NCBI RefSeq assembly: GCF_000504085.1
Contig: NC_022792.1
Location: 1,764,001 to 1,828,000, forward strand
Direction of reading: 5' to 3'
From: Pseudothermotoga elfii DSM 9442 = NBRC 107921
GTDB taxonomy: Bacteria > Thermotogota > Thermotogae > Thermotogales > DSM-5069
Length of the DNA: 64,000 bases
Part shown: piece after piece, positions 16,299 through 23,146 of the stretch
Layout: each line of letters starts with the position of its first letter
Position numbering within the stretch: the first letter of the stretch is position 1
Translations under genes and position numbers: made by a program
The notes under the pieces: generated by a model
What the model was told of the DNA's origin: nothing
What the model saw: the letters and a program-made list of their open reading frames with translations, nothing else
The model's database searches: none

Positions 16299-17501
16299 AT
16301 GGAACAGCTCAACGAAAGAACCGTTTTGGAATATGTGGAAAAAACCGATCTCAGAAAATCTATTCTTGGCGATGGAAAACTTTCGGCTCAGATTATTTCA
16401 GAAGGCAATGTTAATTTAATATTCCGCATTTGCAATATCGAAAATGGAAATTCTGTTATACTGAAGCAGGCTTTGCCGTATGCATGGAGATATCCAGATT
16501 TCAAAATGCCAGTTGACAGGCAGAGAATAGAGTACGAAACCCTCAGTATAGAATCACAGTACGCACCAGATTATGTCCCAAAAATATATTTCTACGATAA
16601 TAAATCGCACGTCCTTGTGATAGAAGACCTTAAGGAATTAAAAGTTATGCGCGAAGCTTTAATAGATGGAGAAATCTTTCCAAAAGTTGCTGAGCACATA
16701 GGGATCTTCATGGCAAAAACCCTGTTCTATACTTCTGATCTTTACTTATCTTCAGGAAAGAAAAAAGAAATGGTGATCAATTTTTCAAACCCTGTTCTGT
16801 GCAAAGTTCAGGAAGATTTGGTATTCACACAACCATATATTGATCATCCAAACAATAAATGGAGTAAGCCTCTTGATGAAATAGTAAAAAAGATTCACCA
16901 GGATGACAAAATCAGAGGTGAAATATTCTACTTCAAAGAACTTTATATGACTAAATCTCAGGCCTTAATCCACAACGATTTGCACACCGGTTCGATAATG
17001 TTAAATGAAAAAACAACGAAAGTGATCGACCCGGAATTTGCATTTTACGGCCCAATGGCACATGACATAGGAACCTACTTTGCGAACCTTGCAATTGCCT
17101 ATGCCGCACAGGAAGCACACAGAGTAGAACCAGGCACAAGAAATGTATATAGAGAATGGATAGCTGAGTCTTTCGAAGAAACCTGGAACGTTTTTCAGCA
17201 GAGATTTTTGAATGCCTGGGAAAAAGATTCAAATGGCGAATGGCCTTCAGAAAGCTATAGAGAAAATTACATGCTAAGGCTTCTTAAAGAATCGGCTGGA
17301 TTTGGTGCAGCTGAGATTTTCAGAAGGACTATAGGAATGGCGCATGTTCATGATTTCTGGACAATAAAAGATGAAAACATCAGGGCGAAATCAGAAAGTA
17401 TTGCCCTGTATATTGCTATTAATTGGATCAACATGTGGAAAGACGTTGAAAAAATTCAAGATCTGTCGCAAGTTATGAAAAATTCAAAACCATTGATTTG
17501 A
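16299..17501 (+). CDS. mtnK: 5-Methylthioribose kinase
   Basis: Phosphorylates 5-methylthioribose at C1 with ATP; some family members also accept 5-deoxyribose. The 400-residue length matches MtnK. It has the aminoglycoside-kinase-like fold: ATP-site Lys in VILKQALP (K56), a catalytic loop HNDLHTGS (225-232) and the metal-binding DPEFAFYGP (244-252). The MtnK-type stretch AWRYPDFKMPVDRQRIEYE is present at 62-80. The ATG follows AAGGAGG. It sits between the importer and MtnA, giving the order import, phosphorylation, isomerisation. Confidence 0.93.
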   Translation: MEQLNERTVLEYVEKTDLRKSILGDGKLSAQIISEGNVNLIFRICNIENGNSVILKQALPYAWRYPDFKMPVDRQRIEYETLSIESQYAPDYVPKIYFYDNKSHVLVIEDLKELKVMREALIDGEIFPKVAEHIGIFMAKTLFYTSDLYLSSGKKKEMVINFSNPVLCKVQEDLVFTQPYIDHPNNKWSKPLDEIVKKIHQDDKIRGEIFYFKELYMTKSQALIHNDLHTGSIMLNEKTTKVIDPEFAFYGPMAHDIGTYFANLAIAYAAQEAHRVEPGTRNVYREWIAESFEETWNVFQQRFLNAWEKDSNGEWPSESYRENYMLRLLKESAGFGAAEIFRRTIGMAHVHDFWTIKDENIRAKSESIALYIAINWINMWKDVEKIQDLSQVMKNSKPLI

Positions 17502-17515
17502 AAGGAGGAAATGAT

Positions 17516-18553
17516 TTGAGCACATTCAGATCTATAGAATGGAAAAAGGATAAACTTGTACTCTTAGATCAGAGATACCTACCAGAGAAAACTCTGTATC
17601 TTGAATTGAAAACTGTTGATGAGGTTGCCAGAGCCATTAAAGAGATGACCGTTAGAGGTGCTCCGGCAATTGGAGTAGCAGCAGCTTATGGAATGGTTCT
17701 TTGTGTGCAAAAGCTTTCGAAAAATGACGATTTAATCAGAGAACTTCAAAAGGCCGACGATCTTCTGAGAGCTTCAAGACCCACTGCCGTGAATCTTTTC
17801 TGGGCACTGGATAGAATGAAGAAAATCTGGCAGGGATTCAATGGTTCGCTCGAAGATTTAAAAATGATTCTGGAAAAAGAAGCAGTTGATATTGAACGCG
17901 AAGATGTTGAAATAAACAAACAGATAGCTAAAAATGGTGTTGAACTTGTACCTTTTGGAGCAAAGATAATTCACCACTGTAACACAGGATCTCTGGCAAC
18001 AGTTGATTACGGTACTGCTTTAGGAATAATAAGATATGCACATGAAATAGATAAGAAAATACACGTTTTCCTGGATGAAACAAGGCCAAGATTACAGGGG
18101 GCCCGTTTATCTGCCTGGGAAATGAAAGAACTCGGTATACCTCACACAATAATCGTAGATGGAGCAAGCGGTCTGGTGATGAAAAAATTCAAAATCGATC
18201 TTGCACTTGTTGGAGCAGACAGAATAGCAGCCAACGGCGATACTGCAAATAAAATAGGAACTTACAACCTCGCTATAGTTGCCAAATACCATAATGTTCC
18301 ATTATACGTTGTTGCACCAACCAGTACGATTGATCTCAAAACACCTGCAGGTCAGGATATACCAATAGAAGAAAGAAGCGCTGATGAAATCCGCTGTGTG
18401 GGAAATAGTCAGGTTGCACCACAGGAAAGCCCTGTTTTCAATCCAGCTTTCGATGTGACCCCGGCAGAATTAATTTCAGGCATTATCACAGAAAAAGGCA
18501 TTGTTTATCCACCGTTCAAAGAAAATCTCAGAAAGCTTTTTGAATCGGCGTAA
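17516..18553 (+). CDS. mtnA: 5-Methylthioribose-1-phosphate isomerase
   Basis: Converts methylthioribose-1-phosphate to methylthioribulose-1-phosphate. About 345 residues, related to the eIF2B subunits. RGAPAIG lies at 47-53, the catalytic Cys in HHCNTGSLAT at about 155, and the catalytic Asp in VGADRIAANGDTANKIGTY at about 235. The TTG at 17516 is chosen because AAGGAGG lies seven bases upstream; the frame stays open back to 17498 inside the mtnK stop. An archaeal-type ribose-1,5-bisphosphate isomerase is a relative but does not fit the mtnK neighbour. Confidence 0.94.
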   Translation: MSTFRSIEWKKDKLVLLDQRYLPEKTLYLELKTVDEVARAIKEMTVRGAPAIGVAAAYGMVLCVQKLSKNDDLIRELQKADDLLRASRPTAVNLFWALDRMKKIWQGFNGSLEDLKMILEKEAVDIEREDVEINKQIAKNGVELVPFGAKIIHHCNTGSLATVDYGTALGIIRYAHEIDKKIHVFLDETRPRLQGARLSAWEMKELGIPHTIIVDGASGLVMKKFKIDLALVGADRIAANGDTANKIGTYNLAIVAKYHNVPLYVVAPTSTIDLKTPAGQDIPIEERSADEIRCVGNSQVAPQESPVFNPAFDVTPAELISGIITEKGIVYPPFKENLRKLFESA

Positions 18554-18571
18554 CTTCGGAGGTGATGTTCA

Positions 18572-19480
18572 GTGAATAAAGATATCAAGAAAATAGCAGA
18601 TGGGATAAGACGCAGGGTACTTGAATTTACAATAAGAAATGGTGGCGGTTATTTATCTCAAGCATGTTCAAGTGCAGAAATTTTAGCCACTCTCTACACC
18701 AAACTGATGAACATTGGTCCATCAGTAGCTCCAAAAATTCCCCCTGCTTTCACCGGTGTACCATCGAAAAACAACAGAGAATATTTTTCCGGTTACGGTT
18801 ACAACGGTCCAAAAGAACCCCAGCTCGACAGGTTTTTTCTCAGTCCCGTGCATTACGCTCTGGTGCTGTATGCCACTCTTGTTGAAACAAATCGCATGGC
18901 TGCTGAAGGCTTGGAGATGTTCAACAAAGATGGTTTTACAGTCGAGATGATAGGTGCCGATCATTCACCCGGTCATGAATTGATGTCCGGCTCACTTGGT
19001 CAAACTATCTCACAGGTTCTTGGTATAGCTCTGGCAAGAAAGAGAAAAGGTGAAACTGGGAAAAACTGGCTTGTCATGTCCGATGGGGAATTCATGATTG
19101 GCCAGACATGGGAAGCAATAGAAACACTTTCTTTTTACAAAATAGATACTGTCAATGTGATAATCGACGCAAATGGACAATCAGCAGATGGAAAAATAGA
19201 TACTGTAAATCAAATTGAACCACTGAAAAAAAGATTGGAATCTTTCGGAGCAGTGGCAGTAGAAGTGAATGGACATGATACGAAACAACTCATTGATGCG
19301 GCAAACACTCCTCATGAATCAAAACCTTTGTTTATTATCGCAAGGACTATCCCATATCAGGGCATTGAAATACTCAAAAAAAGAGCACCAAAATTTCATT
19401 ACATAAGAATAACAAATGAACAGGAAAAAGAAGAACTTCAGCAATTTCTGCACGAAAGATTCGGGGGTGATGGTCAATGA
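18572..19480 (+). CDS. Transketolase-like N-terminal subunit (TPP-pyrophosphate domain)
   Basis: A 302-residue subunit of a split transketolase that binds the diphosphate of TPP. It keeps SGSLGQ (139-144), SDGE (170-173, usually GDGE) and DANGQ (199-203, the Mg-binding Asn region). Residues that normally contact sugar substrate are changed: GGYLSQ at 25-30 where common transketolases have a GH-x-G motif, SPVHY at 91-95 in place of SKGHA, and an extra HSPGHELM before SGSLGQ. A GTG start follows GGAGGTGA. The changes suggest an unusual donor sugar; one linked to methylthioribulose-phosphate is my inference. Confidence 0.88.
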   Translation: MNKDIKKIADGIRRRVLEFTIRNGGGYLSQACSSAEILATLYTKLMNIGPSVAPKIPPAFTGVPSKNNREYFSGYGYNGPKEPQLDRFFLSPVHYALVLYATLVETNRMAAEGLEMFNKDGFTVEMIGADHSPGHELMSGSLGQTISQVLGIALARKRKGETGKNWLVMSDGEFMIGQTWEAIETLSFYKIDTVNVIIDANGQSADGKIDTVNQIEPLKKRLESFGAVAVEVNGHDTKQLIDAANTPHESKPLFIIARTIPYQGIEILKKRAPKFHYIRITNEQEKEELQQFLHERFGGDGQ

Positions 19481-20478
19481 AATTAGAAGCAAGAGTTCAT
19501 GAGAGAAATCTTGTCAAATGGGCTGCCGATAAACCGGAAGTCGTTGTTTTTTCAGCTGATTTAACCAATTCTACGGAAATAGGTCTTTTCAAAGAAACCT
19601 ATCCAGATAGATTTTATTCCTTCGGAATGACCGAACAAAACATGATGAGCGCAGCAGGAGGTATGGCAAGAGAAGGCTTTACACCCTTCGTACATACTTT
19701 TGCCGTTTTTATGTACAGAAGAGCCCTTGATCAAATAGAAATGAGCATAGCCTATCCAAACCTGAAAGTAAGGATATTTGGCTTTTTACCCGGTATAACT
19801 ACGCCAGGTGGTGCATCGCACCAGGCGATAAACGACATTGGAATTTTGCGGACAGTTCCCAACATGACCATACTGGAAACAGGTGATGCAACAGAAGTAG
19901 AGAGCGTTCTCGACGTGGCTCAATCAATAGATGGACCTGTTTACATCAGGCAACTTAGGGGACAAATACCAAGATTGTTTAAAGAACCAATGAGATTTGG
20001 AAAGAGTAGAGTTTTGAGCAAAGGAAGCGATATTACTCTGATAACAAGCGGAATCATGACTGAAGAAGCCCTGAAAGCCACAGCAGTGCTCAGAGAAAAT
20101 GGCGTTTCTATAGAACACTTACATATCTCGACTCACAAACCATTTGGTGATGACTCAATACTTGATGCAATTGAAAAAACGAAATACGGTGTGATCAGTA
20201 TGGAAAATCACACAATCATTGGTGGACTTGGCAGTTCAATTTCAGAACTCATGGCTGAAAACGGTATTGCTAAACGCCTTATAAGAATAGGTTTAAAAGA
20301 CACATACGCTCATGGTGGAAGTAAAGAATATCTGATGAAATACTATGGACTTAATGCGATGAATCTTGTAAAAGCCGTTGAAACTCTCACAGGTCAAAAA
20401 CTGAATATCAAGGAAGAAGATCTTGTCGAGCCACAGATAGATGAGATTGAGCAATTTATAAAAAGTGAAGATTTATAA
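19477..20478 (+). CDS. Transketolase-like C-terminal subunit (TPP-pyrimidine domain)
   Basis: A 333-residue partner subunit. The catalytic Glu that activates the TPP ring is in GMTEQNMM (E53). The pyrimidine-binding segment reads FAVFMYRRALDQI, and the C-terminal transketolase domain starts near residue 190. It overlaps the N-terminal subunit gene by four bases (ATGA), so equal amounts are expected. Deoxyxylulose-phosphate synthase and pyruvate dehydrogenase E1-beta share this fold, but the order and sizes fit a split transketolase. Confidence 0.9.
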   Translation: MKLEARVHERNLVKWAADKPEVVVFSADLTNSTEIGLFKETYPDRFYSFGMTEQNMMSAAGGMAREGFTPFVHTFAVFMYRRALDQIEMSIAYPNLKVRIFGFLPGITTPGGASHQAINDIGILRTVPNMTILETGDATEVESVLDVAQSIDGPVYIRQLRGQIPRLFKEPMRFGKSRVLSKGSDITLITSGIMTEEALKATAVLRENGVSIEHLHISTHKPFGDDSILDAIEKTKYGVISMENHTIIGGLGSSISELMAENGIAKRLIRIGLKDTYAHGGSKEYLMKYYGLNAMNLVKAVETLTGQKLNIKEEDLVEPQIDEIEQFIKSEDL

Positions 20479-20495
20479 ATGGAAGGTGAATCAAA

Positions 20496-21626
20496 GTGAT
20501 TGAATATGAAACCAGATACCATTTCAGTCAGGAGAGATTCAGGGTAAAATATCAGATATTTGAAGAAAGTAAAAGAGCCAAGGAAATTGCCGAAGCAATC
20601 TGTGTTGAACAGACTATCGAATTTCCAATAGAACTTACAGGAAATTCAATTAGAGAAAATGTTGTTGGAAAAATTGAAGAGATTCAAAACAATCACAATT
20701 CCACTGTTGTTACAATAAGTTACCCTGTCGAGACTGTTGGAAATGAACCAGCACAATTTTTCAACGTTATCATGGGAAACTGCAGCCTGTTTCCAAATTT
20801 GAAGATAATCGGCCTTCAACTTTCCCCTTCTATAGAAAATATCTTTCCCGGTCCGCGCTATGGCATTTCAGGATTGAGAAAATTGCTTTCTATATACAAC
20901 AGGCCACTTCTTGCAACAGCCATCAAGCCAATGGGTCTCTCAACAGATCAGCTTGCCCAGATGGCTTACAATTTAGCACTTGGTGGTATAGACATTATAA
21001 AAGACGATCACGGACTTGCTGATCAACCATTCTCAAAATTCAAAGATCGTGTTTTAAAAGTAACAGAAGCAATTCACAAAGCAAATCGCGAAACTGGATT
21101 TCACACAATCTACGCTCCAAACATAACATCTAATGAGCAAACTATGTTGAAACAAGCAGAATTTGTCAAAGAAGCTGGAAGTGGTGCACTGCTTGTATCA
21201 CCGGCTCTCAGTGGATTCAGCAGTTTCATAACTTTGAGGGAAAACACCGATCTTCCTATTTTGAGCCACCCGGCCTTTCTTGGCGGATATCTTTCTATTA
21301 TGGATTTTGACGTTTTGTTTGGAACAATACAGCGTATGATAGGCGCCGATGTAGTAATATTTCCAAATTACGGTGGTCGTTTTACTTTTTCAAAAGAAGA
21401 TTGTCGCAAAATAAATCATGGACTCAAAAAACCTTTCGGATCATTCAAAGAAATCTTTCCATCTCCGGCAGGAGGTATGAATATAGATTCTTGTGGTGAT
21501 ATAGTGTCATTTTATAACAAAGATGTGGTACTTTTAATAGGAGGGGCGCTCCACAAAGCAGGTGCAGATTTAACAGAAAATGTAAAAGCATTTAAAGCGC
21601 AGGTTGAAAAAATCCATGTTCGATGA
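20496..21626 (+). CDS. RuBisCO-like protein (form IV RuBisCO large-chain homologue)
   Basis: A 376-residue TIM-barrel enzyme. It has the phosphate/substrate Lys in AIKPMGLS (K144), a metal-site stretch GGIDIIKDDHG with K169, D171 and H172, then LSHPAFLGGY, FPNYGGRF (near 290-297), FPSPAGGM and LIGGALHKAG. In true RuBisCO the triad is Lys-Asp-Glu; here His replaces the Glu, and the loop-6 lysine motif is absent, so it should not fix CO2. Known relatives are the enolase MtnW and the methylthioribulose-1-phosphate isomerase of the isoprenoid shunt; the neighbours favour an isomerase role on MtnA's product. A GTG start follows GGAAGGTGA. Confidence 0.9.
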   Translation: MIEYETRYHFSQERFRVKYQIFEESKRAKEIAEAICVEQTIEFPIELTGNSIRENVVGKIEEIQNNHNSTVVTISYPVETVGNEPAQFFNVIMGNCSLFPNLKIIGLQLSPSIENIFPGPRYGISGLRKLLSIYNRPLLATAIKPMGLSTDQLAQMAYNLALGGIDIIKDDHGLADQPFSKFKDRVLKVTEAIHKANRETGFHTIYAPNITSNEQTMLKQAEFVKEAGSGALLVSPALSGFSSFITLRENTDLPILSHPAFLGGYLSIMDFDVLFGTIQRMIGADVVIFPNYGGRFTFSKEDCRKINHGLKKPFGSFKEIFPSPAGGMNIDSCGDIVSFYNKDVVLLIGGALHKAGADLTENVKAFKAQVEKIHVR

Positions 21627-22579: not shown

Positions 22580-22992
22580 AAAATTCTATTTTCAGTGAAT
22601 GGTTGAATTGTTCTAAAGAACATGTAATGTGTTATAACAAAATCGTGGGACTCAAGATGAATGTAAGATATCTAAAAAGCATAGCTTGAAGTAAAACATT
22701 CCAAACCATGTAGTGCGGCGGGAATAGGTTAAGAGTCAGATCATTGACAAGTGAAAAAAGATGGTAAAACAAGATCAGGTCACTGATACAGTAATTTGCA
22801 ATGATTTTAAGCAAAATCTTCAAACCTCCCTCAAAAAATAGACATAGCGAAAACAAGCTACTTTTAAGAAATAGGTCCTGAATCCGCATGGGAAGCCAAA
22901 AAGAGTGATGAAAAAGGGTTAATGTTAGACATGCACTAACATTGTTAACACCAGGTTATGAATTTTAGATACAAATAGCCCTTTATTTATGG
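22580..22992. other. Long gene-free stretch upstream of the repeat element
   Basis: No credible gene on either strand: the open frames are short and lack ribosome sites. It holds a perfect 8-bp inverted repeat AATGTTAG/CTAACATT (22921-22928 and 22936-22943) with a seven-base loop. No terminator is visible after the SorC regulator gene. It may be decayed sequence; I recognise no insertion-sequence end. Confidence 0.5.
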
Positions 22993-22998
22993 TATACT
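22990..22998 (+). promoter_or_regulatory. Extended -10 promoter driving the repeat element
   Basis: TGG immediately followed by TATACT (22993-22998) makes an extended -10 promoter; no good -35 box is seen at 16-18 bases. A transcript would start near 23005, cross both repeats and reach the hairpin at 23122, giving an RNA of about 140 bases. Confidence 0.5.
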
Positions 22999-23010
22999 CA
23001 AAAACGTAGA

Positions 23011-23118
23011 GTCCGAAAGAAGGTCCTCTCTGAAAGAGATGGAAACTTTCCTCCTCCATTCCTTCCTCCTCCTCTCTTTTTAGTCCGAAAGAAGGTCCTC
23101 TCTGAAAGAGATGGGAAC
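23011..23118 (+). repeat. Two direct 36-base repeats with a 36-base pyrimidine-rich spacer (CRISPR-like or small-RNA unit)
   Basis: The unit GTCCGAAAGAAGG...GATGGAAAC at 23011-23046 recurs at 23083-23118 with one difference near the 3' end (GGGAAC). Each copy can form a small hairpin TCTCT-GAA-AGAGA followed by ATGGAAAC, which resembles the end of Thermotoga-type CRISPR repeats. The 36 bases between (23047-23082) are almost all C and T (TTTCCTCCTCC...), complementary to Shine-Dalgarno sequence. No cas genes are in the window. It could be a two-repeat orphan array or a regulatory RNA with an anti-ribosome-site loop. Confidence 0.6.
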
Positions 23119-23121
23119 AAA

Positions 23122-23146
23122 AAAAGGACCAATTACTGGTCCTTTT
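23122..23146. terminator. Bidirectional terminator
   Basis: AAAAGGACC (23122-23130) pairs with GGTCCTTTT (23138-23146) around a seven-base loop. T-rich sequence follows on both strands, so it can end the repeat transcript (plus) and the importer operon (minus). GGTCCT in the second repeat (23094-23099) could pair with AGGACC of this stem. Confidence 0.75.

Follow-up and report, generated by a model that had tools for sequence, protein, structure and literature searches.

We found that a short unit in the 64,000-nt window analysed here (the whole stretch of Pseudothermotoga elfii DSM 9442 DNA) is almost certainly an orphan CRISPR array of a type III repeat family, built as leader, repeat, spacer and repeat. 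Leader homology together with the repeat match identifies it as a CRISPR array instead of a chance pair of repeats, and the occurrence of the same repeat family beside type III genes in sister species G002, in combination with a host that lacks Cas10, makes it an orphan of the type III family. The element is of a known kind, the orphan mini-CRISPR array; orphan arrays are already known. The original prediction had offered this reading next to that of an RNA masking ribosome sites, and the conserved leader and the repeat shared with full sister-species arrays now bear out the former.

Architecture of the array

The unit occurs once in the 2.17-Mb host genome (a single contig, 99.96% complete), on the chromosome, flanked by metabolic and transport genes. 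Its parts are as follows.

22726–23010, plus strand: CRISPR leader, recognized by identity to the type III array leaders of G002; best conserved part, the last 154 nt (22857–23010)
22921–22943, plus strand: 8-bp perfect inverted repeat in the leader, AATGTTAG-ACATGCA-CTAACATT, from a script search
22990–22998, plus strand: extended -10 promoter element TGG-TATACT, from the sequence, with TGnTATACT kept in the G002 leaders
23011–23046, plus strand: CRISPR repeat 1, leader-proximal, with the canonical tag ATGGAAAC, from direct sequence comparison
23047–23082, plus strand: single spacer, 36 nt, 94% pyrimidine, from the sequence; searches yielded no protospacer
23083–23118, plus strand: CRISPR repeat 2, leader-distal, with one tag substitution (ATGGGAAC), from direct sequence comparison
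23122–23146, plus strand: intrinsic terminator hairpin, possibly bidirectional, from fold prediction and a terminator scan

Two 36-nt direct repeats, differing by a single mismatch in the tag (ATGGAAAC versus ATGGGAAC), thus enclose a unique spacer of similar length (36 nt), in which 34 of the 36 bases are C or T. Fold prediction gives a small stem 5' of ATGGAAAC for both repeats. The original prediction had described the repeats, their stems and the nearly pure C/T spacer in these terms, and had placed repeats, spacer, extended -10 and terminator correctly; it missed the leader, which takes the start of the unit back to about 22726.

This leader, 5' of the first repeat, is homologous to those of two G002 arrays, the only arrays against which it was compared, with 79% identity to each over 285 nt. 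Identity reached 88% across the 154 nt adjoining repeat 1, versus 66–71% farther out. Neighbouring protein-coding DNA is 76–80% identical between host and sister species, and the remaining intergenic DNA around the unit does not align to sister species, so the proximal leader is conserved beyond its surroundings. The loop and inner arms of the inverted repeat (22921–22943) are identical in both G002 leaders, with A or G at the outer left position; judged by its sequence, it may bind a protein during adaptation or transcription.

The extended -10 proposed ahead of repeat 1 was confirmed, and a sigma-70 scan did not detect a complete promoter with two hexamers or a convincing -35. Transcription is predicted to begin from this element at the leader end, a few bases 5' of repeat 1, and to stop at the hairpin 3' of repeat 2. 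That hairpin, also anticipated, has a 10-bp stem; the terminator scan picks it up on both strands, and it may therefore be shared with the convergent minus-strand ABC-permease gene. Pairing between repeat 2 and the terminator had been suggested as well: the two sequences are indeed complementary (GGTCCT/AGGACC), but the terminator hairpin stays intact when a fold is predicted for the entire unit, and antitermination by repeat 2 was set aside. An Rfam search of the region returned nothing near the gathering score, with a weak ylbH-leader match on the minus strand far below the cut-off.

Elsewhere in the window, the plus strand at 16299–21626 carries an operon for 5-methylthioribose kinase, methylthioribose-1-phosphate isomerase, two split transketolase halves and a RuBisCO-like protein that falls below all NCBIfam RuBisCO/MtnW cut-offs; a regulator with a sugar-binding domain follows these genes. 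The operon looks like a methylthioribose salvage route in which transketolase replaces the usual late steps.

Matching arrays in sister species

Among 41 related genomes, the unit was best matched in G002 (66 places) and G003 (16 places). Direct scanning resolved these into undoubted arrays: G002 has one of 39 repeats and another of 36, and in G003 18 repeats are intact and one further repeat, at the end of the array, has decayed. The orphan repeat equals their repeats at 34–35 of 36 positions (one or two differences), and since two sister species build arrays from this repeat, a chance repeat pair is excluded. The exact repeat pattern had no match elsewhere across genome contigs since the host variant is unique; a degenerate pattern matched a Thermotogota contig corresponding to G003. 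The search for similar elements in relatives, advised in the original prediction, therefore turned up full arrays. The same source would have counted a repeat without a matching array in its own genome against the CRISPR reading; the host indeed holds no such array, but this test was too narrow, as the matching arrays lie in sister species.

Array 1 of G002 is flanked by a type III-B Cmr operon on one side and, on the other, by a cluster of Argonaute, a second Cas1, a CRISPR-associated primase-polymerase, a second Cas6 and Csm5–Csm1 (type III-A), with a type I-B operon adjoining; in this relative, the repeat thus has effector genes of type III as neighbours. The two Cas1 proteins of G002 are only 28% identical, and its two Cas6 proteins show no BLAST similarity to each other. 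In array 2, a terminator directly follows the last repeat. The region G002:C1:238000-285999 as a whole brings together I-B, III-B and III-A operons, two cas1, two cas6, Argonaute, the primase-polymerase, Csx1 and a ring-nuclease-like protein. This Argonaute-bearing locus resembles one reported for Thermotoga (now Pseudothermotoga) profunda, which we take as a lead only.

The syntenic intergenic region carries no array in G001, G002 or G003. Among these genomes, the element is present at this chromosomal site in the host lineage only.

CRISPR machinery of the host

Homology searches for Cas10 of either type (Cmr2 and Csm1), in which positive controls matched, found neither in the host genome, and the Cas10 of a functional type III system is thus absent. 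The host has one cas1, compared with two in G002. It does encode a type I-B operon (cas3, cas5, cas7, cas8b, cas1, cas4 and cas6, with a Cas2-like frame beside cas1) about 0.6 Mb from the orphan array around the circle. The earlier description of the unit as lacking cas genes consequently holds for type III Cas10 effectors but not for the genome, and with a complete-looking I-B operon elsewhere the array is not necessarily without partners.

The host I-B repeat (GTTTCAATCGAACCTTAGAGGGATGGAAAC, 30 nt, 227 copies genome-wide) differs from the orphan repeat, which is accordingly not a member of the I-B family. Read opposite to the listed orientation, it ends in ATGGAAAC, the same tag as in the orphan repeat. 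BLAST detected no similarity between the host I-B Cas6 and the G002 type III Cas6. In the host, the I-B arrays make up a very large family, with 118 repeats in the stretch G000:C1:195000-202800 of the host genome, where four spacers are present twice.

We propose that a type III locus was lost from the host, or never arrived, and that the array stayed behind. If processed, its transcript would yield exactly one guide: the ATGGAAAC tag, then the spacer, then 5' sequence from repeat 2. The substitution in the tag of repeat 2, with no spacer behind it, should spare this guide. Given that the tag left by the I-B repeat is likewise ATGGAAAC, I-B Cas6 would be the likely nuclease and I-B Cascade the likely user of the guide, processing in trans being a guess. 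Continued function of the array through the I-B machinery, as read from these sequences, is possible but somewhat doubtful.

Spacer length and present function

Spacer length differs between the two systems. In the host I-B array, 36 nt is the commonest length (66 of 117 spacers); none of 90 spacers in the type III family is 36 nt long, their mode is 40 nt and lengths of 34–37 nt are rare (5/90). The G002 I-B array has a 66–67-nt spacing, corresponding to spacers of about 36 nt, which indicates that each system has its own length. The 36-nt orphan spacer suggests insertion in trans by the host I-B Cas1–Cas2, an argument from the length of one spacer. The fuller scenario, in which a type III leader–repeat unit lacking an integrase of its own was recognized and filled by a distantly related I-B Cas1–Cas2 and now supplies I-B Cascade with its guide, we regard as unlikely; the spacer length does follow the I-B ruler instead of the type III ruler, and in such a cross-system rescue use would run through the shared ATGGAAAC tag.

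The array could equally be a dead relic, a longer type III array shrunk by recombination between repeats after cas loss and now functionless. This rival concerns present function, not identity; we give it about an even chance, and it is no less likely than an array that still works. The missing type III effector (from the Cmr2 and Csm1 searches), the single spacer left, the tag mutation in the distal repeat and the lack of an array at the syntenic site of three sister genomes are all consistent with decay. Against it stand a spacer length atypical of type III, an intact repeat 1 and a leader whose last 154 nt match G002 better (88%) than do neighbouring genes (76–80%) or the unalignable rest of the intergenic DNA. 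The conserved proximal leader and intact repeat 1 agree with either a recent transfer or selection that lasted until recently.

Spacer composition and candidate targets

At 94% pyrimidine, the orphan spacer exceeds all 207 other spacers (highest 84%). Type III spacers also lean towards pyrimidine (57%), as would be expected if they are antisense to purine-rich mRNA. A C/T-rich spacer had led to the proposal of an antisense RNA masking Shine-Dalgarno sites through CCTCCTCC. Complementarity to the spacer over 6 nt or more does occur in 37 of 107 upstream regions, versus 14 random 20-mers; however, shuffles of the same composition average 29.5 and 31 of 200 reach 37, so that the matches are not significantly above shuffled spacers. 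Any C/T-rich sequence pairs with GGAGG, and a CRISPR array accounts for the whole structure. We consider masking of ribosome sites extremely improbable.

Searches for a target of the orphan array recovered none. Allowing up to 3 mismatches, the 45 genomes searched within the order yielded no protospacer; viral contigs contained no exact 25-mer or first 20-mer of the spacer and likewise lacked the repeat core. The second spacer 20-mer matched three related viral contigs (GC 60–63%), with only 24 of 36 positions matching, and was rejected as chance. A phage BLAST with the spacer was empty, although the low-complexity filter may mask this query. In the host genome, only the spacer itself was recovered at up to 3 mismatches, and the host-directed spacer envisaged earlier was not supported.

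Partial pairing was weighed separately, since a single crRNA might lead I-B Cascade to a host promoter in the manner of CreA/CreR. The two-repeat, one-spacer layout resembles that of minimal creA genes (PMC8501985), and a 7-nt seed match lies in the intergenic region 5' of the host I-B cas6. However, 14 of 200 shuffles and 10 of 207 ordinary spacers equalled or exceeded this seed, which is not significant, and the site is not visible 5' of cas6 in G001 or G002. The repeats are also not degenerate as in creA, having one mismatch, and the unit lies away from cas genes and from any detected toxin. Such a regulatory guide is very improbable.

Comparison with known systems

The origin and working state of orphan arrays usually cannot be told; in this case, the parent system can be named from sister genomes. 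With a spacer-length ruler for each system (36 and 40 nt) and a shared crRNA tag, rescue by integrase and Cas6 across types also becomes directly testable in one thermophile.

In CreTA modules, creA consists of two repeats around one guide and works with a type I effector (PMC8501985). The orphan array shares the two repeats flanking one guide, but its repeats are not degenerate, no toxin RNA was detected, it has no significant partial target and it is not at a cas operon. Virus- or plasmid-borne mini-CRISPR arrays (PMC6858448, PMC9071438) have few spacers and no adjacent cas genes, like the orphan array, and depend on machinery encoded elsewhere, as it would too; in contrast to them, it is chromosomal and has a full leader and a repeat core found on no viral contig. 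With the host I-B family it shares the ATGGAAAC tag and a spacer length of 36, whereas that family has a 30-nt repeat of other sequence, a different leader and 227 copies. The type III arrays of G002 and G003 differ in having 17–38 spacers of about 40 nt at another chromosomal site, with Cmr, Csm, Argonaute and primase-polymerase genes alongside in G002; they share with the orphan array the repeat (34–35/36), the repeat length, the extended -10, the leader (G002) and, in one array, a terminator after the last repeat.
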